32,252 nt of DNA from an uncultured bacterium (GTDB lineage Bacteria > Bacillota > Clostridia > Lachnospirales > Lachnospiraceae): the NCBI GenBank assembly GCA_947651225.1, contig CANSYK010000039.1, forward strand, positions 1 to 32,252. The letters run 5' to 3'. Both the position numbers and the translations under genes were made by a program. Shown in pieces: positions 12,236 through 26,343 of this stretch. Numbering within the stretch: the first letter of the stretch is position 1; each line of letters opens with the position of its first letter. The notes beneath the pieces were generated by a model. That model was not told where the DNA came from, did no database searches, and saw only the letters and a list, made by a program, of their open reading frames with translations.

Positions 12236-12264
12236 TTTTCAAATCAAAAAAAATGTGCTATGGT
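12236..12264 (+). promoter_or_regulatory. Promoter of the type III glutamine synthetase
   Basis: TTTTCA (12236-12241) and TATGGT (12259-12264) are 17 bases apart. Transcription would start near 12271, leaving a leader of about 140 bases that contains the terminator at 12298-12330. The rest of the gap back to 12084 is A/T-rich, with nothing else recognised. Confidence 0.55.
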
Positions 12265-12289: not shown

Positions 12290-12305
12290 AGGACAAGGGC
12301 GTTCT
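12290..12305 (+). promoter_or_regulatory. Candidate ANTAR-target hairpin (antiterminator)
   Basis: AGGAC pairs with GTTCT (one G-U pair) around the hexaloop AAGGGC, which has A at loop position 1 and G at position 4 as in known ANTAR-binding hairpins. The hairpin uses bases 12298-12305, which are also needed for the terminator stem, so the two folds exclude each other. Known ANTAR targets have two such hairpins. The upstream one is not clear here: ACAGT/ACTGT at 12269-12287 has a larger loop lacking the consensus. Confidence 0.45.
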
Positions 12306-12330
12306 CAATTTACTTGAGTGCGCCTTTTTT
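12298..12330 (+). terminator. Leader terminator upstream of glnN
   Basis: GGCG pairs with CGCC and CTCAA with TTGAG over a five-base loop, followed by six T. It lies between the promoter and the coding region, so it acts as an attenuator and not as the end of a gene. Confidence 0.75.
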
Positions 12331-12412
12331 GCTAATTTTAATGCTAAATCCTGCAGTACATACTGATTCAAATTTTATCACAACTGATACTCAGGAAAGG
12401 ATGGTATTAATT

Positions 12413-14521
12413 ATGGAAAAAAATGTAATTGAACAGGTATTTGGGATAAACGTGTTCAACGATGAGGTAATGCAGACAAAACTGCCAAAGGATGTTTATA
12501 AATCCTGGAAAAAAACCTTAGAAAGCGGGGAGGACTTAGATTCTGACATCGCAAACGTTGTAGCTCATGCCATGAAGGAATGGGCACTGGAGCACGGTGC
12601 AACGCATTATACGCACTGGTTCCATCCGATGACAGGAATCACAGCAGAAAAACATGACTCCTTCTTAAGCCCTGCAACAGAAAGCAAGCCTGTTCTTGAA
12701 TTTAAAGGAAAAGAATTAATCAAGGGGGAACCAGATGCTTCTTCTTTCCCTTCTGGCGGCCTGCGCGCAACCTTTGAAGCAAGAGGATATACCGCATGGG
12801 ATTGTACCTCTCCAGCCTTTCTGCGTGAAGATTCCGGCGGAGTTACCCTCTGTATTCCTACTGCTTTCTGCTCTTACACAGGTGAAGCTTTAGATAAAAA
12901 GACACCTCTTTTACGTTCCATGGAAGCAATCAGCAAACAGGCTGTCCGTATTATGAAATTATTCGGGTATGACGACGTTAAAAAGGTATCTTGTTCTGTA
13001 GGACCAGAACAGGAATATTTCTTAATAAACCATGAAAAATATTTGCAGCGTAAAGATTTAATTTTTACCGGACGTACTCTTTTCGGCGCACCAGCACCAA
13101 AAGGACAGGAGCTTGACGACCATTATTTTGGTATTATCAAAGAACGTATCGCTGTATTTATGAAAGATTTAAACCAAGAGTTATGGAAAGTGGGAATCCT
13201 CGCAAAAACACAGCATAATGAAGTAGCTCCTGCACAGCATGAAATGGCGCCTATTTACTCTACAGCAAATATTGCTACCGACCATAACCAGCTTGTTATG
13301 GAGATTATGAAAAAAGTAGCAAAAAGGCATAACATGGAATGCCTGCTGCATGAAAAACCATTTGAAGGTGTAAATGGCTCTGGTAAGCACAACAACTGGT
13401 CCATTGTAACTGATACTGGCATCAATCTTTTAGACCCGGGCAAAAAACCACATGAGAACACAAAATTCCTGCTCTTTTTATCTGCTGTCATTAAAGCAGT
13501 TGACGAAAATGCAGAACTTTTACGCCTTTCTGCTTCCAATCCAGGAAATGACCACAGACTTGGTGCAAACGAAGCTCCTCCTGCCATTATTTCTATTTTC
13601 CTTGGCGAGCAGTTAGAAGATATTATTGAGCAGATTGTAAAAGGAGATGTCTCTTCTTCTATTCAAAGTTCACAGCTTGATACAGGTGTCCATGTTCTTC
13701 CTGTTTTAAAGAAAGATGCGACAGACAGAAACCGTACTTCACCATTTGCCTTTACCGGAAATAAGTTTGAATTCCGTATGCTTGGTTCCTCTCTTTCTAT
13801 CGCCGGGCCAAACTTTACATTAAATACAATTGTTGCTGATGTTTTACAGGATTTTGCTGATGAACTGGAAAAAGCAGATGATTTTGACAGTGCTGTAAAC
13901 GATTTGATTAAAAGAACCGTTACAGAACACCAGAAAGTTATCTTTAATGGTGACGGCTATTCTGATGACTGGATTACTGAGGCAGAAAAACGTGGTCTTC
14001 CAAATATTAAATCTATGGTGGAGGCTATTCCATACCTTGTTTCTGATCAAACAGTACAGGTATTTGAAAGACAGAATGTACTTACAAAGGCAGAATTGGA
14101 ATCCAGGGCAGAAATTAATTATGAAACCTATTCAAAGACTATTAATATTGAAGCAAAAACCATGATTGACATGGCTGGCAAACAATACATACCTGCTATT
14201 ATCCAGTATGTCACAAGTCTTGCAGACTCTGTCAACAGCATCACAGCAGCATGCAGCTCCGTTGATGTCTCTGTTCAGACAGAACTTCTGACAAAATGCT
14301 CTTCTCTTCTTGCAACAGCACAGAAAGCGTTGACACAGCTTGAAAAAGTAACGGCAGAAGCTGCTGCAAAAGAAGAAGGCCAGGAGCAGGCAGTCTACTT
14401 TAAAGACGTTGTATTCCCTGCTATGGATGCACTCCGCAGCCCGATTGATGAACTAGAAATGATAGTTGACCAGGATTATTGGCCAGTTCCATCTTATAGT
14501 GATTTGTTATTTGAGGTTTAG
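12413..14521 (+). CDS. glnN: Type III glutamine synthetase
   Basis: The 702-residue length and motifs are those of [85 protein letters not shown] and [11 protein letters not shown]. Each of these blocks keeps the catalytic glutamates and histidine, so it should make glutamine from glutamate, ammonia and ATP. GSIII is a dodecamer of larger subunits than GSI. The start at 12413 matches the family N-terminus ([17 protein letters not shown]); longer in-frame readings run into the leader. It is monocistronic, behind an attenuator-like leader. It is the only catalytically complete glutamine synthetase in the window. A repeat begins at its stop codon. Confidence 0.95.
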
Positions 14522-16024: not shown

Positions 16025-16960
16025 ATGAATAGTAAAAAAGTAGTTGTCGCATTAGGCCACAGTGCCTTAGGAAGAACTTTTCCAGAGCAAAAAGAAGCTG
16101 TTAAAAACGCAGCGTCTGCTATTTCTGATTTAATAGAAGCAAAATATCAGGTTGTCATTACCCACAGCAATGGACCGCAAATCGGCATGATTCATGCTGC
16201 CATGACCGAGTACAGCAGGTTAGTGCCTTCTAATACCGTTGCACCAATGTCAATTTGTAGTGCAATGAGCCAGGGATATATTGGCTACGACCTGCAAAAT
16301 GAAATCAGGACAGAGCTTTTAAACCGTGGCATTTATAAGCCAGTTTCCACGTTAATTACACAGGTTCGTGTTGATCCATTTGACGCAGCATTTACCCATC
16401 CACACAAATTAATTGGACGCTACATGACAGAAGAAGAAGCAAAAAATGAAGAGAAAAAAGGCAATCATGTCACTTTGGTCGAAGGAAAAGGGTATCAGCG
16501 TATCATCGCCGCACCCCGCCCAATGGAAATCTATGAGTTAGACGCCATCAAAGCGCTGATGGATGCCGGACAGATTGTTATAGCAGCAGGCGGTGGCGGA
16601 ATTCCTGTTTTACAGCAGGGAACACGTTTAAAAGGTGCCAGCGCCGTCATTGAAAAGGACATCACAAGCGCATGCCTTGCCGAACAGCTTAATGCAGATA
16701 TTCTTTTGCTCCTGACCGGAGTAGAAAAGGTATGCCTGAATTTTAGAAAAGAAAGTGAAACGCCTTTAGATTCCATGACCGTAGAAGAAGCTACAAAATA
16801 TATTGAAGAAAACCAGTTTTCTACCGGAGCAATGCTGCCAAAGGTAGAAGCAGCCGTTTCCTTTGCCTCTTCCTCCAATGAACGGAAATCGATTATTACC
16901 AGTATTGATACTGCCCTTGCCGGACTGCAGGGCAAAACCGGCACACAGGTACATTGCTAG
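16025..16960 (+). CDS. arcC: Carbamate kinase
   Basis: The 311-residue amino-acid-kinase protein transfers phosphate between carbamoyl phosphate and ADP, yielding ATP and carbamate (or the reverse). Supporting blocks are VVVALGHSALG, ITHSNGPQIGMI, SAMSQGYIGYDLQN, IAAPRPMEIYELDAI, IAAGGGGIPV, GASAVIEKDITS, LLLLTGVEKVCLNF and TGAMLPKVEAA. The first two motifs read GHSA and THSNGP instead of the usual GGNA and THGNGP, a variant that I believe occurs in Clostridia. GGGAGGAG precedes the start. It has no arcA/arcB or agmatine genes beside it, so the carbamoyl phosphate source is not shown. A hairpin follows at 16976. Confidence 0.9.
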   Translation: MNSKKVVVALGHSALGRTFPEQKEAVKNAASAISDLIEAKYQVVITHSNGPQIGMIHAAMTEYSRLVPSNTVAPMSICSAMSQGYIGYDLQNEIRTELLNRGIYKPVSTLITQVRVDPFDAAFTHPHKLIGRYMTEEEAKNEEKKGNHVTLVEGKGYQRIIAAPRPMEIYELDAIKALMDAGQIVIAAGGGGIPVLQQGTRLKGASAVIEKDITSACLAEQLNADILLLLTGVEKVCLNFRKESETPLDSMTVEEATKYIEENQFSTGAMLPKVEAAVSFASSSNERKSIITSIDTALAGLQGKTGTQVHC

Positions 16961-17426: not shown

Positions 17427-20400
17427 TTAACCATTTTCCCGTTCCTTTGAAATGGTTGCAATATCAACAACCGAAAGGTTCTCATGGTCAGAGTTTTCCA
17501 GGCTTGTCAACAGCGCATCTGCTGTATCCAGCGAAGTCAGGCAGTTCACGCCTGTCTCAATCGCCGTGCGGCGAATCAGGAAGCCATCCTTTAACTTATC
17601 GCCATAGGTTGGTGTATCGATTACTAAATCAATCTGATGCTCTAACAGCAAATCCATCAGTGTCGGAGACTCTTCATTTATCCGGTTTACCGGGAAGGTA
17701 AGGACGCCATGCTCATTTAAAACCCTTGCGGTATTTCTTGTTGCAAAGATATCATAGCCTAACTTCTTAAACCGCTTTGCAATATCAACTGCTTCCAGTT
17801 TATCAGAATCCTTGACGGTAAGAATCATCTTTTTATGTTTTGGCAAATCGACACCTGATCCTAAAAATGCCTTATAAAGAGCTTCATTAAAGGACTTGGA
17901 GATTCCTAAGCACTCTCCAGTAGACTTCATCTCAGGCCCTAAACTGATTTCTGCCCCACGCAGTTTCTCAAAAGAGAACACCGGCATCTTAATCGCAAGG
18001 TATTCTGATTTTTTTGCAAGTCCGGTTTCATAGCCCAAATCCTTGATTTTTGCCCCAAGAATCACCTTTGATGCGAGGTCAACAATCGGAATTCCTGTTA
18101 CTTTGCTAATATATGGCACCGTACGGCTGGAACGTGGATTTACCTCAATCACAAAAACTTCTTCGTTATATACGATAAACTGAATATTAATCAGTCCAAT
18201 TACATGCAGGGAACGTGCAAGCTTTCTGGTATAATCCACAATAACACGCTGAATCTTTTCTGAAATACTCTGTGCCGGATAAACGGAAATACTGTCGCCG
18301 GAATGGATTCCTGCACGCTCCACATGCTCCATAATCCCCGGAATCAGAATATCGTCCCCGTCACATACAGCATCTACTTCCACTTCTTTTCCCATCAGGT
18401 ACTTGTCAACCAGAATCGGATGTTCCTGATGATAACGGTTAATCACTGCCATAAATTCCCTGATATCCGAATCGGTTACCGCAATCTGCATCCCCTGCCC
18501 GCCAAGCACATAAGAAGGCCGGACAAGTACAGGATAGCCAAGCTCATTTGCCGCTTCCAAAGCTTCCTCTGTTGTAAATACCGTTTTCCCGGAAGGACGT
18601 GGAATACAGCACTGCTCTAATATTTCATCAAACAATTCCCTGTCCTCTGCGGCATCTACATTCTCCGCACTGGTACCAAGAATCTTAACTCCCATTTTTA
18701 AAAGCGCTTCCGTCAGTTTAATTGCCGTCTGCCCGCCAAACTGCACAACCGCCCCATCTGGATTTTCCAGCCGGACAATATTTTCCACATCTTCCGGCGT
18801 CAAAGGCTCGAAGTATAGTTTATCGGCGATATCAAAGTCTGTACTTACTGTTTCCGGGTTGTTATTGACAATAATTGTTTCATACCCTTCCTGTGACAAA
18901 GCCCAGACACTGTGTACCGAACAATAGTCAAATTCAATTCCCTGCCCAATCCGAATTGGGCCGGAGCCAAGCACCATGATTTTTTTCTCTTTCGTACTGT
19001 CCTCTACCTCATTTACGCCATCAAAACAGCTATAATAATACGGCGTCTCTGAAGCAAATTCCGCTGCACAGGTATCCACCATTTTAAAAGCGGCTGTAAT
19101 GCCCATCTCACAGCGCATATCATGGATTTCTTTTTCTGTCTTTCCAGTAAATTCTGCAATCACCTCATCCGGGAATTCCAGCCGCTTTGCCTCCATCAAA
19201 AGCTCCTTCTCCAGAACTTTTGCCTTTTTCAGCTTCTCTTCCATTTCGACCAGAATTGCAATTTTATCTATAAACCAGTCATCAATCATGGTAATCTCAT
19301 GAATCGTTTCATAAGAAACACCCCGCCGGATTGCTTCCGCTATTACAAAAATGCGGCGGTCATCTACTACATGAAGCTGCTCAACAACCTCTTCCTTTGT
19401 CATGCCAATATATTCATCATTCATCAGGCAATTGACATGCTGTTCCAGAGAACGCAGCGCCTTCATCAACGCTCCCTCAAAATTGGTGCAGATGCTCATA
19501 ACCTCGCCAGTTGCCTTCATCTGGGTGGTCAGCGTTCTTTTTGCCTTGATAAATTTATCAAATGGCAGACGCGGAATCTTTACCACAACATAATCAAGGG
19601 CAGGCTCAAAACTTGCATAGGTCTTTCCTGTCACTGCGTTTGGAATCTCATCTAATGTATAACCAAGTGCAATTTTAGCAGAAACCTTTGCAATCGGATA
19701 TCCGGTTGCCTTGGATGCAAGCGCCGAAGAACGGCTTACACGCGGATTTACCTCAATTACAATATATTCAAAGGAAGTTGGATGAAGCGCAAACTGCACA
19801 TTACATCCACCCGTAATTCCCAGTTCATCAATAATCCGAAGTGCAGAAGTACGGAGCATCTGGTATTCTTTGTCTGACAAGGTCTGGGAAGGCGCCACGA
19901 CAATACTGTCTCCGGTATGCACTCCGACAGGATCCAGATTTTCCATATTACATACGGTAATACAAGTTCCATTGCTGTCACGCATTACCTCATATTCAAT
20001 TTCCTTCCATCCCGCAATGCAGCGTTCTACCAGAACCTGTCCCACACGGGAAAGGCGCAGGCCATTGGAAAGAATTTCCTTTAATTCTTCCTGATTATGG
20101 GCGATTCCACCGCCAGAGCCTCCAAGCGTATAAGCTGGACGCAGAACAACCGGATACCCTATCTTTTCTGCAAATGCAACGCCATCTTCAATATTTTCCA
20201 CTAATTCTGAAGCAGCACATGGCTCGCCAATCCGCTCCATCATATCTTTAAATTCCTGGCGTCCCTCTGCATTTCGGATGGTCTCTGCCGTTGTCCCAAG
20301 CAGCTTCACTCCATGGCTGTCTAAGAAACCGGATTCTGCAAGTTCCATACCAAGGTTTAAGCCTGCCTGTCCGCCCATATTCGGAAGCAGGCTGTCCGGT

Positions 20401-20645
20401 TTTTCCACCTCAATAATTTTCTGGAGTACCTCAACTGTCAATGGCTCAATATAAACCTTATCCGCAATCTCTTTATCTGTCATAATCGTAGCCGGATTGG
20501 AATTGACCAGAATTACCTCCATGCCTTCTTCTTTTAAGGAACGGCATGCCTGTGTGCCGGCATAATCAAACTCAGCGGCCTGTCCAATTACAATCGGGCC
20601 GGAACCAATTACTAAAACTCTTTTTATCCCTTCAAGCTTTGGCAT
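17427..20645 (-). CDS. carB: Carbamoyl-phosphate synthase large subunit
   Basis: The 1072-residue protein has the full duplicated layout. The first ATP-grasp half (about 1-400) has VLVIGSGPIVIGQAAEFDYAGTQ and RPAYTLGGSGGGIA. An oligomerisation region (about 400-550) follows. The second half (about 555-935) has IMVLGSGPIRIGQGIEFDYCSVH and RPSYVLGGQGMQIA. The C-terminal MGS-like allosteric domain (about 935-1072) has DIFATRNTARVLNEHG and IDTPTYGDK. It uses ammonia delivered by CarA, bicarbonate and two ATP to make carbamoyl phosphate for pyrimidines and arginine. Its ATG shares one base with the carA stop codon (TAATG), so translation is coupled. No missing catalytic motif was seen. Confidence 0.97.
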   Translation of the reverse strand: MPKLEGIKRVLVIGSGPIVIGQAAEFDYAGTQACRSLKEEGMEVILVNSNPATIMTDKEIADKVYIEPLTVEVLQKIIEVEKPDSLLPNMGGQAGLNLGMELAESGFLDSHGVKLLGTTAETIRNAEGRQEFKDMMERIGEPCAASELVENIEDGVAFAEKIGYPVVLRPAYTLGGSGGGIAHNQEELKEILSNGLRLSRVGQVLVERCIAGWKEIEYEVMRDSNGTCITVCNMENLDPVGVHTGDSIVVAPSQTLSDKEYQMLRTSALRIIDELGITGGCNVQFALHPTSFEYIVIEVNPRVSRSSALASKATGYPIAKVSAKIALGYTLDEIPNAVTGKTYASFEPALDYVVVKIPRLPFDKFIKAKRTLTTQMKATGEVMSICTNFEGALMKALRSLEQHVNCLMNDEYIGMTKEEVVEQLHVVDDRRIFVIAEAIRRGVSYETIHEITMIDDWFIDKIAILVEMEEKLKKAKVLEKELLMEAKRLEFPDEVIAEFTGKTEKEIHDMRCEMGITAAFKMVDTCAAEFASETPYYYSCFDGVNEVEDSTKEKKIMVLGSGPIRIGQGIEFDYCSVHSVWALSQEGYETIIVNNNPETVSTDFDIADKLYFEPLTPEDVENIVRLENPDGAVVQFGGQTAIKLTEALLKMGVKILGTSAENVDAAEDRELFDEILEQCCIPRPSGKTVFTTEEALEAANELGYPVLVRPSYVLGGQGMQIAVTDSDIREFMAVINRYHQEHPILVDKYLMGKEVEVDAVCDGDDILIPGIMEHVERAGIHSGDSISVYPAQSISEKIQRVIVDYTRKLARSLHVIGLINIQFIVYNEEVFVIEVNPRSSRTVPYISKVTGIPIVDLASKVILGAKIKDLGYETGLAKKSEYLAIKMPVFSFEKLRGAEISLGPEMKSTGECLGISKSFNEALYKAFLGSGVDLPKHKKMILTVKDSDKLEAVDIAKRFKKLGYDIFATRNTARVLNEHGVLTFPVNRINEESPTLMDLLLEHQIDLVIDTPTYGDKLKDGFLIRRTAIETGVNCLTSLDTADALLTSLENSDHENLSVVDIATISKERENG

Positions 20646-21745
20646 TATCTGTTTCCTCCTGTCATTTTCATAAACTCGTCAAACAAAAGCTCCGAATCCT
20701 TTGGGCCGGCATTTGCTTCTGGATGGAACTGCACTGTCTTTACAGGCTTTCCAATATATTCCAGCCCCTCTACCGTTTTATCATTTACATTGATAAACCA
20801 TGGTTTTGCCACTTCCTTGTCAATAGAATCTGCATCCACAACATAACCATGGTTTTGTGAAGAAATATAAACCTTGCCTGTTACCAAATCCTTCACGGGA
20901 TGGTTTGCACCCCTGTGGCCATATTTCATTTTATAGGTCTTTGCCCCATGTGCAAGCGCCATTAACTGATGCCCCAGGCAAATTGCAAAAACAGGAATTT
21001 TGGAATCTGCCAAAACCCGAATCTGTTCAATAATCTCTGTACATTCTGCTGGATCTCCCGGTCCATTTGTAATCATAATGCCATCTGGGTTTGAAGCAAT
21101 TACCTCCTGCGCATCAAAATCACATGGATAAACAGTTACCTTACAGCCACGGTTTAACAGGCAGCGTATAATATTTTTCTTTGTGCCAACATCAATTACT
21201 GCAATTTTTCTATCCGCTTCCACTTTTTCTGACTGGATATCCCCCGGCACATAATCTGTTTTTTCACTGCAGCTTACCCTCTTTACTACACCTGTTACCT
21301 TATATTCTTTTAACAGGGAAAGGACTTCTTCTTTGTTATAGGCCTCATCCGTTGTAATCATACCATTCATTGTACCCTTTTCACGGAGAAGCTTTGTCAG
21401 TGCGCGGGTATCAATGCCTGATATTCCCGGAATATCATTTTCCTCTAAAAAATGCTGTAACGTATCTTCCGAACGGAAATTACTTGGCATACGGGAAAGT
21501 TCCCGGACAATAAAGCCATCCGGCCAGCCTTTTTTTGATTCCATATCCTGATAACAGACACCATAGTTACCAATCAATGGATAAGTCATCGTTACAGCCT
21601 GACCTGCATAGCTTGGATCGGTAAGTACCTCCAAATACCCCGTCATGGAAGTATTGAAAACAATTTCACTGATAATCTCTTTTTCCTTTCCAATACTCTT
21701 TCCCTCAAACACGGTTCCGTCTTCTAAAATAAGAAACGCCTTCAT
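20645..21745 (-). CDS. carA: Carbamoyl-phosphate synthase small subunit
   Basis: The start at 21745 gives 366 residues beginning MKAFLILEDGTVFEGKSIG; the upstream ATG at 21769 has no ribosome site. The N-terminal CPSase domain has VFNTSMTGYLEVLTDPSYAGQ and GISGIDTRALTKLLREKG. The class I glutaminase domain has ITNGPGDPAE, the nucleophile cysteine in FAICLGHQLMALA, and the His-Glu pair in VQFHPEANAGP. It hydrolyses glutamine and channels ammonia to CarB. One base separates its ATG from the ANTAR stop codon, so carA, carB and the ANTAR gene form one translationally linked unit. Confidence 0.96.
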   Translation of the reverse strand: MKAFLILEDGTVFEGKSIGKEKEIISEIVFNTSMTGYLEVLTDPSYAGQAVTMTYPLIGNYGVCYQDMESKKGWPDGFIVRELSRMPSNFRSEDTLQHFLEENDIPGISGIDTRALTKLLREKGTMNGMITTDEAYNKEEVLSLLKEYKVTGVVKRVSCSEKTDYVPGDIQSEKVEADRKIAVIDVGTKKNIIRCLLNRGCKVTVYPCDFDAQEVIASNPDGIMITNGPGDPAECTEIIEQIRVLADSKIPVFAICLGHQLMALAHGAKTYKMKYGHRGANHPVKDLVTGKVYISSQNHGYVVDADSIDKEVAKPWFINVNDKTVEGLEYIGKPVKTVQFHPEANAGPKDSELLFDEFMKMTGGNR

Positions 21746-21746
21746 A

Positions 21747-22307
21747 TTATATTTCCCATTCCTTTCCATTGAGTTCTAATATCATTTCTGCTGTTTCTAC
21801 CATATTGGTAGCACTGTCCATACTTAACTTCTGAATATAATGATGTGCTTCGTCCTCTGTCATCTGGTTACGCTCCATCAACAACTTCTTTGCAGCAGTA
21901 ATCGCCTTTTTTTCCTCTTTCGTCCGAAGCTTCGGCCTGCCTTTCTCTTTCTTGCGCCAGCGGTTATACTGAACCATCATCATTTCTAACGTATTCAGCA
22001 AATCCTGCACCTTAAATGGCATAGCAAGCGACACAAAATTTCCGAAACCAGCTTCTTCTAACTTTGCCGGAGATGCAAGCAAAAGCATCTGAAAACCTTT
22101 TGGCAGATAATCATTTATTTCCATATAATACATATCCGCAAACCGATATCCGCATATTACAATTCCACCGTCCAGACAGTTCACCGCATCAATCACCTGT
22201 GAACCGCTGTCACAAATAATCCGCACATCATAACCATTTTTCAGAAGGAGTTTTTGAAGATTTTTCCCATCACTTCGTTTCGGTAAAGCGATAATGATAT
22301 CTGCCAT
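21747..22307 (-). CDS. ANTAR-domain antitermination regulator with degenerate receiver
   Basis: The 186-residue protein has an N-terminal CheY-like fold (about 1-115) and a C-terminal ANTAR domain (about 125-180: AKKLLMERNQMTEDEAHHYIQKLSMDSATNMVETAEMIL). ANTAR proteins such as NasR, AmiR and EutV bind paired hexaloop hairpins in nascent RNA and prevent terminator formation. The receiver is degenerate: the acidic pair is replaced (IIIALPKRSDG) and the phospho-acceptor Asp position reads ICGYRF. Phosphorylation is therefore unlikely, and control by a protein or ligand is expected. It lies 36 bases after the GlnA-like gene and one base before carA. The nearest RNA target candidate in the window is the glnN leader. 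Confidence 0.9.
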   Translation of the reverse strand: MADIIIALPKRSDGKNLQKLLLKNGYDVRIICDSGSQVIDAVNCLDGGIVICGYRFADMYYMEINDYLPKGFQMLLLASPAKLEEAGFGNFVSLAMPFKVQDLLNTLEMMMVQYNRWRKKEKGRPKLRTKEEKKAITAAKKLLMERNQMTEDEAHHYIQKLSMDSATNMVETAEMILELNGKEWEI

Positions 22308-22343: not shown

Positions 22344-23657
22344 TTATACCGTTCCCAGATAACGCTCCTTTTCCCATTCTGTTACCTGCTTACAATATTC
22401 ATTCCATTCACTGTCCTTTGTCTGAATCAGATGTCCCGAAATATGTTCTCCAAGCGCCTCCTGAAGAAATGCATCCTTTTTAAACTGGGATACGGCTTCA
22501 TGGAGCGTACGCGGCAATTTTTCCGGGACAACGGCTTCTGGCGCAATTTCATCCATACATGCAGGCGGTTTCAGCTTTTGCTTCATTCCATCCAAACCCG
22601 CATAAAGACATGCCGCAATGACAAGATAGGGATTAGAAGCCCCATCCGGACTGCGCAATACAACTCTTGCACCATCCCCTCCAATCGAAGTCAGCCGGAT
22701 TAACGGACTCCTGTTAGTCGAAGACCAGCACACAGACACCGGCGCCAGATATCCCGGTATCAGCCTTTTATAAGAATTAACAATTGGATTGTTTACTAAA
22801 GACATACTGGCAATATGGTTTAAAATCCCTGCCATAAACTGATAGCCTGTCTCACTGACACCCAGTTTATCTCCTTTATCGGTAAAAATATTTCTTCCAT
22901 ATTTATTGCACATAGAAAATGTATAATGCGCCCCGGAACCCTGTACATTCTCTTTTGGCTTTGGCATAAAAGTCGCATGAACGCCATGACGTCTTGCTAC
23001 AGTCCTTACCACCAGTCTTGTTGTCATAATGTCATCTGCCATCTTTAAGGCATCCACATGCTTTAAATCCAGCACATGCTGCGCTGCCCCGTCAGAATGA
23101 TAGGAAGACTCAACTTCAATTCCCATATCCGCAAGGTAAAGCACCATATCACGCCTTGCATTCTCGCCTCCATCAATTGGTCCTATATCAAAATAGCCGC
23201 CCTTCTCACTGGTATGATTGGTCGGCTCTCCGTTCTCACCCAGGTCAAAAAGGAAAAATTCATTCTTTACTGCCACATCAGGCTGATACCCCATTTCCTT
23301 TGCCTGGCTAATCGCTCTTTTTAATATATATCTGCTGTCTCCGTCAAAAGGCGTGCCGTCCGGCTTTACCACATCACAGATAAAACGTGCCACCTTGCCG
23401 TTTTGCGGACGCCATGGAAAAATAACAAAAGTATCTAAATCAGGAATCAAAAATAACTCTTCATATCCCATTCCCCGGAATCCGTCAATCGCCGCACAGT
23501 CAAACTTGCATCTGCCATCTAAAATCCCCTCTATTTGGTCCACAGTCATCGCCATGTTTTTTAAATTGCCAGCAATATCCGTAAACTGTAGACGAATAAA
23601 TTCAATATCCTCTTCTTCAATCAGATCTAAAATATCCTGCCTGGAATACTCTGCCAT
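22344..23657 (-). CDS. Type I glutamine synthetase-like protein lacking catalytic glutamates (probable pseudoenzyme)
   Basis: The 437-residue protein aligns over its whole length with GSI (IRLQFTDIAGNLKN, IPDLDTFVIFPW, GKVARFICDV, HGVHATFMPKP, NSYKRLIPGY, NRSPLIRL, NPYL, AGLDGMKQKLKPP). By B. subtilis GlnA numbering recalled from memory, metal and catalytic residues are changed: E132 to K131, E189 to S188, E196 to V195, E304 to L304 and E333 to V333. E134 (E133 here) stays, and H245 (H244 here), R298, R316 and R335 are kept. The motif HHEVAPGQHE reads YHSDGAAQHV. Glutamine synthesis is therefore very unlikely, while glutamate or glutamine binding may remain. As first gene of the operon with the ANTAR regulator and carAB, it fits a sensor. 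Database labels will probably say glnA. Confidence 0.88.
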   Translation of the reverse strand: MAEYSRQDILDLIEEEDIEFIRLQFTDIAGNLKNMAMTVDQIEGILDGRCKFDCAAIDGFRGMGYEELFLIPDLDTFVIFPWRPQNGKVARFICDVVKPDGTPFDGDSRYILKRAISQAKEMGYQPDVAVKNEFFLFDLGENGEPTNHTSEKGGYFDIGPIDGGENARRDMVLYLADMGIEVESSYHSDGAAQHVLDLKHVDALKMADDIMTTRLVVRTVARRHGVHATFMPKPKENVQGSGAHYTFSMCNKYGRNIFTDKGDKLGVSETGYQFMAGILNHIASMSLVNNPIVNSYKRLIPGYLAPVSVCWSSTNRSPLIRLTSIGGDGARVVLRSPDGASNPYLVIAACLYAGLDGMKQKLKPPACMDEIAPEAVVPEKLPRTLHEAVSQFKKDAFLQEALGEHISGHLIQTKDSEWNEYCKQVTEWEKERYLGTV

Positions 23658-23702: not shown

Positions 23703-23731
23703 ATTATACACATTGTTCCAGTTCCTGTCAA
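23703..23731 (-). promoter_or_regulatory. Consensus promoter of the GlnA-like/ANTAR/carAB operon
   Basis: On the minus strand TTGACA (plus 23726-23731) and TATAAT (plus 23703-23708) are 17 bases apart. The leader is only about 40 bases and shows no terminator. Confidence 0.82.
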
Positions 23732-23860: not shown

Positions 23861-24529
23861 TTGAAAAAAATAGCAATCATTGAAGATGATACCGATATTC
23901 GCAACATGATAATAAAGTTTCTGATAAACCAAAATTATGAAGTGTATTCTGCTTCAAATGGAAAAGAGGGAATAGACTTATGCCAGAAATTTTTACCAAA
24001 CCTTATCATTTTAGATTTAATGCTGCCAATCCTAAGTGGCGATAGTGTGATAAAGCAATTAAGGACATTTACAGATATTCCTGTAATTGTTGTATCAGCA
24101 AAAACAATGGTACAATCCAAAATAGATTTACTGCGTTTGGGAGCAGATGACTATATGACAAAACCTTTTGACCTTTTTGAGTTACTTGCAAGAATTGAGG
24201 CTAATTTAAAAAGAAGTGTAACTGCTCCACAAAAAGCGGATATTTATTTAAAGTATAAGGATATTGAAATCGAAAATTGTAATGCATATATAAAAGGAAC
24301 CTTTGTACAATTTACAGCAACAGAATTATCAATTTTAATACTTCTGTTACAATATCCGCAAAAAATTTTTTCAAAACAAAATCTCTATGAATCTATCTGG
24401 CAAGAAGAATATGCCTATGATAGTGATACGATCAACACGCATATAAGCAACATTCGTAAAAAAATAAAAAAGCATACGGATACCGAATATATAGAAACCG
24501 TGTGGGGGATTGGATATAAATTGAAATAA
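23861..24529 (+). CDS. OmpR/PhoB-family response regulator
   Basis: The 222-residue protein starts at TTG, supported by GGAGGA eight bases upstream. The receiver has IIEDD, the phospho-Asp in LIILDLMLP, and DYMTKPFDLFELLARIEA. The winged-helix domain has FTATELSILILLLQYPQKIFSKQNLYESIW and the recognition/wing part INTHISNIRKKI...YIETVWGIGYKLK. It probably pairs with the histidine kinase at 26405 to control the ABC transporter genes between them. The coding sequence is strikingly A/T-rich compared with the adjacent GlnA-like operon. Confidence 0.93.
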   Translation: MKKIAIIEDDTDIRNMIIKFLINQNYEVYSASNGKEGIDLCQKFLPNLIILDLMLPILSGDSVIKQLRTFTDIPVIVVSAKTMVQSKIDLLRLGADDYMTKPFDLFELLARIEANLKRSVTAPQKADIYLKYKDIEIENCNAYIKGTFVQFTATELSILILLLQYPQKIFSKQNLYESIWQEEYAYDSDTINTHISNIRKKIKKHTDTEYIETVWGIGYKLK

Positions 24530-24593
24530 TTTTCATTCCTTTAGATTTTTTTTAGATTTGAATTGTAAATTAGCATGGAAAGGAGTTGATAAA

Positions 24594-25511
24594 ATGCCAG
24601 AGATTATATGTCAGACAACAGAACTTTGTAAAAATTACAAAAATTTCCATGTATTACAAAATGTTAATCTTTCTATTAACCGAGGAGAAATATACGGGTT
24701 AATTGGCGAAAACGGCGCAGGAAAATCCACCCTGATCCGTATATTAACAGGATTAGCATTTAAAAGCAGCGGTATCATTACTCTGTTCGGAAAAACAGAA
24801 AATTTGCAACATGAACGTGGCAAAATTGGCTGTACTGTTGAAATGCCCGCATTGTATAAAGATATGACTGCGAAACAAAATTTAGAGATACAGCGGGTAC
24901 AGCGAGGGATTCCAGACAAAAAATGTATCTCAAAAACATTAGAACTTGTCGGACTTAATAATACGAAAGGGAAGAAAGTAAATAACTTTTCTCTGGGAAT
25001 GAAACAGCGTTTAGCATTAGCTGTTGCACTTCTGGGAGAGCCGGAATTTCTAATATTAGATGAACCTGTCAATGGGTTAGACCCAACAGGTATTATTGAG
25101 CTTAGAGAACTGCTAAAAAAGTTAGCACGGGAAAACCATGTAACTATTTTGATTTCAAGCCATATTTTAAGTGAACTAAACCAACTGGCAACTTGTTATG
25201 GCTTTTTACATCATGGTAAACTACTTAAGCAAATTACGGCTAAAGAGTTAAATGAAGAATGTAAGCGGCATATCAAACTGAAAACAGATGATACAAAACG
25301 AACTGTTACTGTTTTGGAAGAACAATTAAAATTCAAAAACTTTTCTATCTATCCAGACAATTATATAAGAATATATGAGAAACTGGAAGAAACACATACT
25401 ATTTCAAAAACGCTTTCTTCTAATGGCATTGTAGTTGAAGAAATATCTGTACAGGGAGAAGAATTAGAAACGTATTTTGAAAATCTAATAGGAGGTGGCA
25501 AATATGTTTAA
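24594..25511 (+). CDS. ABC transporter ATP-binding protein (BcrA/lantibiotic-immunity type)
   Basis: The start at 24594 follows AAAGGAG by eight bases. The 305-residue protein has Walker A GENGAGKST, signature NNFSLGMKQRLALAVAL, Walker B FLILDEPVNGLDP and the switch histidine in ISSHILSE. A C-terminal domain of about 85 residues resembles those of BcrA-like proteins. With the permease it would export or expel a membrane-active peptide antibiotic, giving resistance or immunity. The substrate is inferred only from the cassette type. Its end overlaps the permease start by eight bases. Confidence 0.9.
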   Translation: MPEIICQTTELCKNYKNFHVLQNVNLSINRGEIYGLIGENGAGKSTLIRILTGLAFKSSGIITLFGKTENLQHERGKIGCTVEMPALYKDMTAKQNLEIQRVQRGIPDKKCISKTLELVGLNNTKGKKVNNFSLGMKQRLALAVALLGEPEFLILDEPVNGLDPTGIIELRELLKKLARENHVTILISSHILSELNQLATCYGFLHHGKLLKQITAKELNEECKRHIKLKTDDTKRTVTVLEEQLKFKNFSIYPDNYIRIYEKLEETHTISKTLSSNGIVVEEISVQGEELETYFENLIGGGKYV

Positions 25512-26343
25512 TCAGTTAAAGTCTGAATTTCTCAAATTGAAATATTCTAAGCTCTTTATAGCAGTCCCAATTCTTCTTTTTGTAGGTTTGGCTTTATACG
25601 GAAGTTTCAGCCTGTCCTCAGGGGGAACACAGCTATTTGTTTCAGAGGGGGATGAAGAAACAAATGCTGCCATACAAGGTATGATTGGTTTTTTTGCCTT
25701 TACATTTGAAAACATTGATACTCCTAAATTTAACGAAATTATGCAATCCTGTATATCCTGCAATGTGTTTCTCTGGATTGTTGCCCTCATTTTAACGATA
25801 CAATTTTTCTGTTATGATTACTCTGCAGGCACAATTAAACTCCCTATTGCGTATGGAATAGGCAGAGTAAAAGTTTACTTTGCGAAAGTTATTGTTATTG
25901 TCTTATATAATGCAATCTGCTACTTTTTATTCAATGTCATTACGCTATGTTTTACTTGTTTACAGATTGGATATACCCCCAATATAACAGAACTGATACA
26001 ATATTTAAGTTATATCGGATTGGATTTTTTAGTAATGATTTCCTTTATTTTACTTTGCATTACGATATCTATCTGTTTGAAAAATACTGGTATCATCGCA
26101 ACAGTCATGTGTTTGTTTACTTTAGGTGGTGCAGTAATTTATACTGGAATATGGCAAAATTTTCACAGTCACACAATACTAAAATATTTAGTCTGGCTCA
26201 ATCCATTATACTATTGGATGAATATGGGAACTTTTCGGCTTGAATATGGGCTGATCAATGAAATAATCGTATACTTTGTTTTCGGACTATTATTTTTGCT
26301 GCCCTTGTCTGTTATACTTGCCAGAAAACAGGAGTTTAAATAA
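25504..26343 (+). CDS. ABC-2 type permease
   Basis: The start at 25504 follows GGAGG by eight bases; a GTG three codons earlier overlaps that site. The 279-residue protein has six predicted membrane segments: about 18-38, then a large extracellular loop (SSGGTQLFVSEGDEETNAAI), then around 90-110, 125-160, 170-190, 195-215 and 250-272. The WLNPLYYWMNMG stretch before the last segment is typical of this type. It is the membrane partner of the ATPase; only one permease is present, so a homodimer is expected. Confidence 0.88.
   Translation: MFNQLKSEFLKLKYSKLFIAVPILLFVGLALYGSFSLSSGGTQLFVSEGDEETNAAIQGMIGFFAFTFENIDTPKFNEIMQSCISCNVFLWIVALILTIQFFCYDYSAGTIKLPIAYGIGRVKVYFAKVIVIVLYNAICYFLFNVITLCFTCLQIGYTPNITELIQYLSYIGLDFLVMISFILLCITISICLKNTGIIATVMCLFTLGGAVIYTGIWQNFHSHTILKYLVWLNPLYYWMNMGTFRLEYGLINEIIVYFVFGLLFLLPLSVILARKQEFK

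Follow-up and report, generated by a model that had tools for sequence, protein, structure and literature searches.

A catalytically eroded glutamine synthetase beside an ANTAR protein: a candidate regulatory pair for nitrogen genes in Lachnospiraceae relatives

Two ANTAR proteins are known to be held by a partner, AmiR by AmiC and NasT by NasS, and glutamine-bound glutamine synthetase (GS) binds TnrA (PMC3795266; PMC9249791). In the GS-GlnR/TnrA circuit of Bacilli, a GSI gene and a nitrogen regulator share one operon, and the regulator reads nitrogen through GS (PMC9249791). According to a review, GS/GOGAT genes of Clostridium saccharobutylicum are induced by the ANTAR protein NitR when nitrogen is limiting (PMC6316151, crediting Stutz 2007). 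As RNA target of ANTAR proteins, Ramesh 2012 (PMC3369931) describes a hexaloop with A1 and G4 on a short stem, where P2 and a terminator overlap. Canonical target RNAs carry two such hexaloops, P1 and P2 (PMC3369931). GS sensing for a neighbouring regulator, partner-controlled ANTAR proteins and ANTAR control of GS/GOGAT genes are already known, each separately. A catalytically eroded GS as an ANTAR partner looks new, as no description of such a pseudo-GS or of a GS-ANTAR pair was found in the titles and abstract openings of the open PMC papers searched.

The locus described here resembles each of these systems in part. As in NasS-NasT and AmiC-AmiR, an ANTAR protein would be controlled by a ligand-binding, non-kinase partner; the partners there are NrtA-like and amide-binding proteins (PMC3795266), while here it is a former enzyme in a predicted complex. 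The operon shared by a GSI gene and a regulator is reminiscent of GS-GlnR/TnrA, but the regulator is an RNA-binding antiterminator instead of a DNA-binding repressor (PMC9249791), and the GS lacks its catalytic residues. NitR is similar in being an ANTAR antiterminator acting on GS/GOGAT genes, and the order glnA-ANTAR-gltB does occur in Clostridium paridis (L123); the passage of PMC6316151 dealing with NitR mentions no sensor role of GS, and what is new here is a GS that has shed catalytic residues. The leader RNAs share with the dual-hexaloop RNAs (PMC3369931) the short stem, the A1/G4 hexaloop, the overlap of P2 with the terminator and the nitrogen genes downstream; they differ in having no P1 above chance, and before glnA-ANTAR operons P2 starts about at the expected transcription start.

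Table 1. Features of the window, i.e., of the whole stretch of 32,252 nucleotides analysed
Feature	Position	Strand	Remark
-10-like hexamer TATGGT of glnN	12259..12264	+	weak promoter call
Upstream hairpin ACAGT/ACTGT, 9-base loop	12269..12287	+	departs from the canonical P1
P2-type hairpin GGAC-AAGGGC-GTTC, hexaloop with A1 and G4	12291..12304	+	predicted ANTAR target, glnN leader
Intrinsic terminator overlapping the P2 hairpin	12298..12331	+	glnN leader
glnN, type III GS	12413..14521	+	only other GS match of the genome; ATG chosen by eye
carB	17427..20645	minus	
carA	20645..21769	minus	start overlaps the end of the ANTAR gene
ANTAR protein, 186 aa	21747..22307	minus	pseudo-receiver, long helix, ANTAR domain (PF03861, 55 bits)
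Pseudo-GSI gene, 437 aa	22344..23657	minus	E132K, E189S, E196V, E304L, E333V (Bacillus numbering)
Promoter TTGACA-17-TATAAT of the pseudo-GS operon	23703..23731	minus	-35 at 23731-23726, -10 at 23708-23703

The window belongs to a genome of 4.38 Mb in 167 contigs. The initial annotation placed a GSI-like protein without catalytic glutamates at the head of an ANTAR-carAB operon; its coordinates were right and the strand, unnamed there, is minus. The full-length GSI match is borne out by both Pfam domains, Gln-synt_C (PF00120, 351.9 bits) and Gln-synt_N (PF03951, 75.9 bits): the beta-Grasp and catalytic domains are present end to end, which places pseudo-GSI in the type I GS family. The closest solved relative is Bacillus GS 4s0r (E 2.5e-137, aligned end to end), and Foldseek matched 4lnn with a TMt of 0.90. 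With the NCBIfam GlnA model, pseudo-GSI scores 398 bits, below the cut-off of 429.15.

In Bacillus numbering, pseudo-GSI has K132, E134, S189, V196, H245, R298, L304, R316, R321, V333 and R335. The initial annotation had thus read correctly both the five replacements and the retained H245, R298, R316 and R335, though R316 is not constant in the group of pseudo-GSI, being T, S or D in four of seven members. Among the residues of a working enzyme (E132, E134, E189, E196, H245, E304, E333), five of six glutamates are replaced. E189, E196 and E333 are metal ligands of GS, and E132 is a substrate contact. Most likely, judging by these residues, pseudo-GSI is a GS fold that no longer makes glutamine.

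The earlier suggestion that substrate contacts may survive proved weak, as not only E132 and E304 are gone but also R62, which is G in the alignment to 4s0r. In Bacillus FBI-GS, glutamine touches E304, itself held by R62 (PMC9249791); pseudo-GSI has L304 and G62 in place of these contacts of the GS-GlnR/TnrA type. Since E304 and R62 are lost, E132 is K and group B lacks H245 as well, glutamine may not be the ligand, and one has to consider another ligand or geometry.

The ANTAR, carA and carB genes lie 3' of the pseudo-GSI gene in the order annotated initially and are closely packed, and the consensus promoter upstream is an exact match. The leader-element model described below found no match between this promoter and the pseudo-GS gene. 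Rfam at the gathering threshold found only a tRNA. A carbamate kinase gene is located near carAB on the opposite strand (window 16025-16960). The region 23861-26343, divergent from the pseudo-GS operon, codes for an OmpR-type response regulator, an ABC ATPase and a likely permease; the ATPase resembles lantibiotic-protection transporters. PF00120 has two matches in the genome, pseudo-GSI and, also in the window at a distance of 10 kb, the type III GS (GSIII) encoded by glnN, which presumably is the working GS.

The neighbour of pseudo-GSI is the only PF03861 (ANTAR) match in the genome. A PDB profile search with this protein retrieved EutV, Rv1626, NasR and AmiR, and its AlphaFold2 model (pLDDT 88.9, pTM 0.64) was best matched by Rv1626 and RNA-bound EutV, with AmiR lower. 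It has Cys-Gly where the acceptor Asp of EutV aligns. Of 104 ANTAR proteins, 85 have Gly and none has Asp at this position; just before it, 79 have Cys and again none has Asp. The protein does not qualify as a phosphorylated response regulator: the acceptor Asp is absent from its receiver, so phosphorylation there is an improbable means of control. The natural alternative is a partner protein of the kind that AmiC and NasS represent (PMC3795266). The comparison with NasS-NasT made in the initial annotation seems reasonable for an ANTAR protein that lacks the acceptor Asp and is the sole one of its genome. When pseudo-GSI and the ANTAR protein were modelled by AlphaFold2 as one chain, the domains folded and their relative placement was not confident (pTM 0.65); all 50 of the matches listed by Foldseek for this joint model were GS.

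The pairing of GSI with ANTAR extends across the family. In 250 genomes with the same family code as the window genome (most named relatives are Lachnospiraceae), a GS match was found in 242 and an ANTAR gene in 221. ANTAR is present in 215 of the 216 genomes with GSI, taken as a match at E<=1e-50, a cut-off set after seeing a gap in the list, versus 6 of the 34 without; these are hand counts, in which nine ANTAR-lacking genomes were assigned by a GS row without an ANTAR row. The sole GSI genome without ANTAR, G130, is 81% complete. All 21 genomes examined for this have exactly one ANTAR match and at least one GSIII each. At the level of loci, we sampled 110 (107 distinct GS), combining the best 80 of 591 with the best 30 of 242 genomes; since likeness to the query guided the choice of loci, their proportions do not stand for frequencies in the family. 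In 104 loci, out of 106 able to show adjacency, the ANTAR gene comes next after GS in the same orientation: four of the remaining six end within 117 bases of GS, and two (L112, L131) have GSI without an adjacent ANTAR gene.

All seven catalytic residues are retained in 80 of the 110 GS, and seven more differ only by Asp at 304. As 87 of 110 loci keep the catalytic set, the GS-ANTAR pairing must be older than the decay. The initial annotation predicted a separate clade in which every member would lack the glutamates and adjoin an ANTAR gene, which was not found; homologues in the same context with all the glutamates, named there as speaking against its reading, form the majority. A narrower version of the prediction does hold, as the GS-ANTAR-carAB order occurs in 11 loci and all of them are decayed.

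Counting Asp at 304 as retained, 23 of the 110 GS, two of them copies, have lost at least one of E132, E134, E189, E196, H245, E304 and E333. We built a tree of 56 of the 110 rows by a quick method without bootstrap, with active-site columns masked and L058, L060 and L063 omitted. Nineteen decayed rows fall on one side of a single branch (SH-aLRT 98), and the decay label requires 3 changes versus 17.1 in shuffles, the other two being the single-residue cases L075 and L115. The lost residues differ among decayed members; e.g., L034 retains E189 and has lost E134, E196 and E304, and H245 is lost in group B. Decayed GS occur in isolates too, among them Anaeromicropila populeti (L060) and Anaerosporobacter faecicola (L126); Lachnoclostridium phytofermentans (L063) is an example of a relative whose GSI has all catalytic residues. 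The most degraded GS include the carAB-linked ones, seven in the group of the window and four in a second one. A link to carAB does not depend on decay as such: in five loci carAB or carB lies directly upstream of an intact GS. In L071, L086, L093 and L113 the end of carB is no more than 26 bases from the GS frame, and in L032 carB is upstream too. These five loci link the same three functions in the opposite order. GSIII is present in all nine genomes with a decayed GS that were checked, and in eight of them the decayed gene is the only GSI-type match. Group A and group B operons of the GS-ANTAR-carAB type occur together in one MAG, HAN043 (L057, L061), so that either one species has two of these operons or the bin is mixed.

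The decayed genes are under purifying selection. Between pseudo-GSI and its nearest relative (95% identity) dN/dS is 0.032 at dS 0.89. Where dS is finite, values range from 0.032 to 0.099 in the six decayed pairs and are 0.043 and 0.039 in the two pairs of GSI that retain the catalytic set, the latter at dS 2.3 and 3.2. Thirteen pairs were computed, of which five with saturated dS are uninformative. In the nearest pair, the ANTAR gene is less constrained (0.139) than pseudo-GSI. Neutral decay of pseudo-GSI is rejected by these ratios, and the view of the initial annotation that it is a selected pseudoenzyme and not a decayed gene is upheld by them. The 19 distinct decayed GS are all full-length, and nine of them come from genomes with eight different genus codes.

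The 142 columns at least 95% conserved in the 86 GSI with the catalytic set were compared with the 19 decayed GSI, leaving out L058, L060 and L063 (copies of L034, L036 and L040) and the single-residue cases L075 and L115, which lie off the branch. In all 19, 86 columns are invariant, among them R298, R321, R335 and G240. Eleven columns are retained in half or fewer; in the numbering of pseudo-GSI these are T26, D67, H186, E188 (=E189), P191, E195 (=E196), F213, N246, P323, E333 and N371. In place of the first His of the HHE motif, 16 of the decayed GSI have Tyr and three have Phe.

Probable targets of the ANTAR protein lie outside the operon and were not mentioned in the initial annotation: the GSIII gene glnN, gltB and amtB. 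A hairpin with an overlapping terminator was found in 21 of 24 GSIII leaders, one per genome (21 genomes; L166 by eye), mostly in the form GRRC-[AG]AnGGY-GTTC. P2 is paired in 84 of 84 cells, as reached by 7 of 500 shuffles, a statistic partly built in because the sites were picked by a motif read from the same leaders. The terminator lies outside the selection motif beyond its first bases. In the 21 leaders 95.9% of its cells are paired, 8 of 11 pairs are changed on both sides, and its covariation is 0.544 versus 0.273 in shuffled alignments, none of 500 being as high.

A covariance model was trained on glnN leaders alone, so that glnN of the window genome is itself a training sequence. Besides glnN, the model found the gltB leader in this genome at E 0.015 and five weaker matches (E 0.25 to 7), none seen before nitrogen genes. 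The amtB leader, found by reading the sequence, has TGAC-AAAGGC-GTCA and a terminator; it was not listed by the genome searches, in which scoring was confined to 150 of the first-look candidates (2184 in this genome). In the relatives, 17 match loci besides glnN included six before gltB, one before amtB, one before glnA and nine before other or unclear genes, one of the 17 being a mirror of a glnN match. Thirty match loci were examined in 20 further ANTAR-bearing genomes: 10 precede glnN, 5 glnA-ANTAR, 3 gltB, 4 amtB and 8 none of these. Matches also lie near genes that by eye resemble purF and an asparagine-synthase-type amidotransferase (L261 in G009 and L282 in G005), suggesting a wider regulon, and a strong element lies about 450 bases before an aspartyl-tRNA synthetase-like gene (L224 in G171, by eye).

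The GS-ANTAR operons can carry the element themselves. Among 72 loci, mostly with intact GS, 36 have a match within about 350 bases before GS at E<=1 and 27 at E<0.01; 39 of 46 model matches entered this count, the mirror and weak distant ones being omitted. Weak elements (E 0.24 to 0.74) precede GS in the decayed loci L036, L049, L126 and L044. The 11 carAB-linked loci have no model match before GS, with only 242 and 111 bases available there in L055 and L059. Over 82 leaders, all four P2 pairs are formed in 78, with GC-to-AT and AT-to-GC exchanges, and the hexaloop has A (74) or G (8) at position 1 and invariably A at position 2 and G at position 4; these counts describe the motif and do not test it, since model or motif had picked the leaders and G4 counted in scoring the register. 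A P1 hexaloop does not exceed chance (5 of 21 leaders versus 2.2 expected, and 2 of 27 versus 2.3), and one is present by eye before gltB of the window genome. All 27 glnA leaders have a TTGACA-like and TATAAT-like promoter, the threshold being reached by 34% of shuffles. In 20 of the 27, 5 to 8 bases separate the end of the -10 box from P2, which would place P2 at the 5' terminus of the RNA or very close to it. For glnN the promoter calls are weak (13 of 21 versus 53% in shuffles).

Occurrence of the element correlates with that of ANTAR. At E<=1e-3 it occurs in 15 of 20 genomes that bear ANTAR and played no part in training versus 2 of 20 ANTAR-lacking ones, and at E<=0.1 in 19 versus 7 of 20, absences referring again to the 150 candidates scored. 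The possibility that ANTAR-lacking genomes miss the element merely for want of glnN is rejected, as all 20 have GSIII. In a smaller search, 3 of the 22 GSIII loci of ANTAR-lacking genomes matched at E<=1e-3, those of G108 (98% complete), G014 (87%) and G130 (81%). In G108 (L245/L285) the hexaloop-terminator element precedes glnN and neither GSI nor ANTAR was found, which makes this genome, so far, a true exception.

We consider it reasonably probable, on the strength of sequence comparison, that pseudo-GSI is a regulatory partner of the adjacent ANTAR antiterminator and gates the glnN, gltB and amtB leaders. The ANTAR protein would bind the hexaloop hairpin in the nascent leader RNA and block the overlapping terminator, and with termination prevented glnN (GSIII), gltB (glutamate synthase) and amtB (ammonium transporter) would be read. 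In the simplest form, the GS-like protein would hold the ANTAR protein when nitrogen is plentiful, and the free ANTAR protein would let these genes be read; induction by NitR on nitrogen limitation fits this direction of the switch (PMC6316151). The main argument is that the GS-ANTAR linkage outlived catalysis in a whole lineage, pointing to a regulatory pair: an eroded GS kept by selection beside ANTAR, in genomes with ANTAR-type switches before nitrogen genes, is most likely a regulator. The regulatory role proposed in the initial annotation thus appears likely, although its clade prediction failed.

Other readings compete with this one. ANTAR might control glnN, gltB and amtB alone or through another signal, the GS-like protein being a ligand-free stabiliser or scaffold. 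Eroded amino-acid and glutamine contacts (E132K, E304L, R62G, and H245 in group B) and the want of a confident contact in the joint model would agree with that, but 86 near-invariant GSI columns unchanged in 19 decayed proteins are more than a passive scaffold seems to need, and we regard it as unlikely. Recognition of the leader element by a non-ANTAR protein, which would take the regulon away from the GS-ANTAR pair, is rather improbable: the hexaloop with G4, the terminator overlap and the correlation with ANTAR speak against it, despite the absence of P1 above chance and the three ANTAR-lacking genomes with the element before glnN.

An enzyme with changed chemistry, e.g., a ligase or transferase feeding CarAB, could be imagined from the retained R298, R321 and R335 and from carAB following in 11 loci. 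However, E189, E196 and E333 have disappeared, N246 and P323 are altered, sublineages have lost different residues, and the seven positions at which the decayed set has gained conservation do not seem catalytic, so that we hold such an enzyme to be very improbable. That pseudo-GSI is a recently inactivated gene on its way out is hardly credible; its lost catalytic residues and the presence of a GSIII gene would suit this, but the frame is open, 19 distinct decayed sequences are full-length, and the dN/dS values contradict it.

The regulatory pairing of pseudo-GSI with ANTAR may be a special case of something broader. Most sampled relatives have a GSI with the catalytic residues intact, and in many of them the element is present in the GSI operon itself, while in the window operon the attenuator is absent and carAB follows the GS-ANTAR pair. 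GSI plus ANTAR could well, with the chances evenly balanced, be the general nitrogen switch of the family, with GS as the sensor, a single 5'-near hexaloop as the target and a GS/GOGAT/Amt regulon. One lineage would then have dispensed with catalysis and been left with a regulation-only GS: in the lineage of the window GSIII would have taken over synthesis, after which the active site eroded.

Sensing by GS independently of catalysis is difficult to examine in a protein that performs both. In the present case, evolution removed the catalytic residues yet kept the GS with its RNA-binding neighbour; if our reading is true, this is a natural separation of function, a GS-ANTAR pair held together by regulation and not by catalysis. 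It would add an enzyme-derived partner to the known partners of ANTAR proteins and would give a family common in the gut (most of the named relatives being Lachnospiraceae) a nitrogen control circuit with predicted targets.
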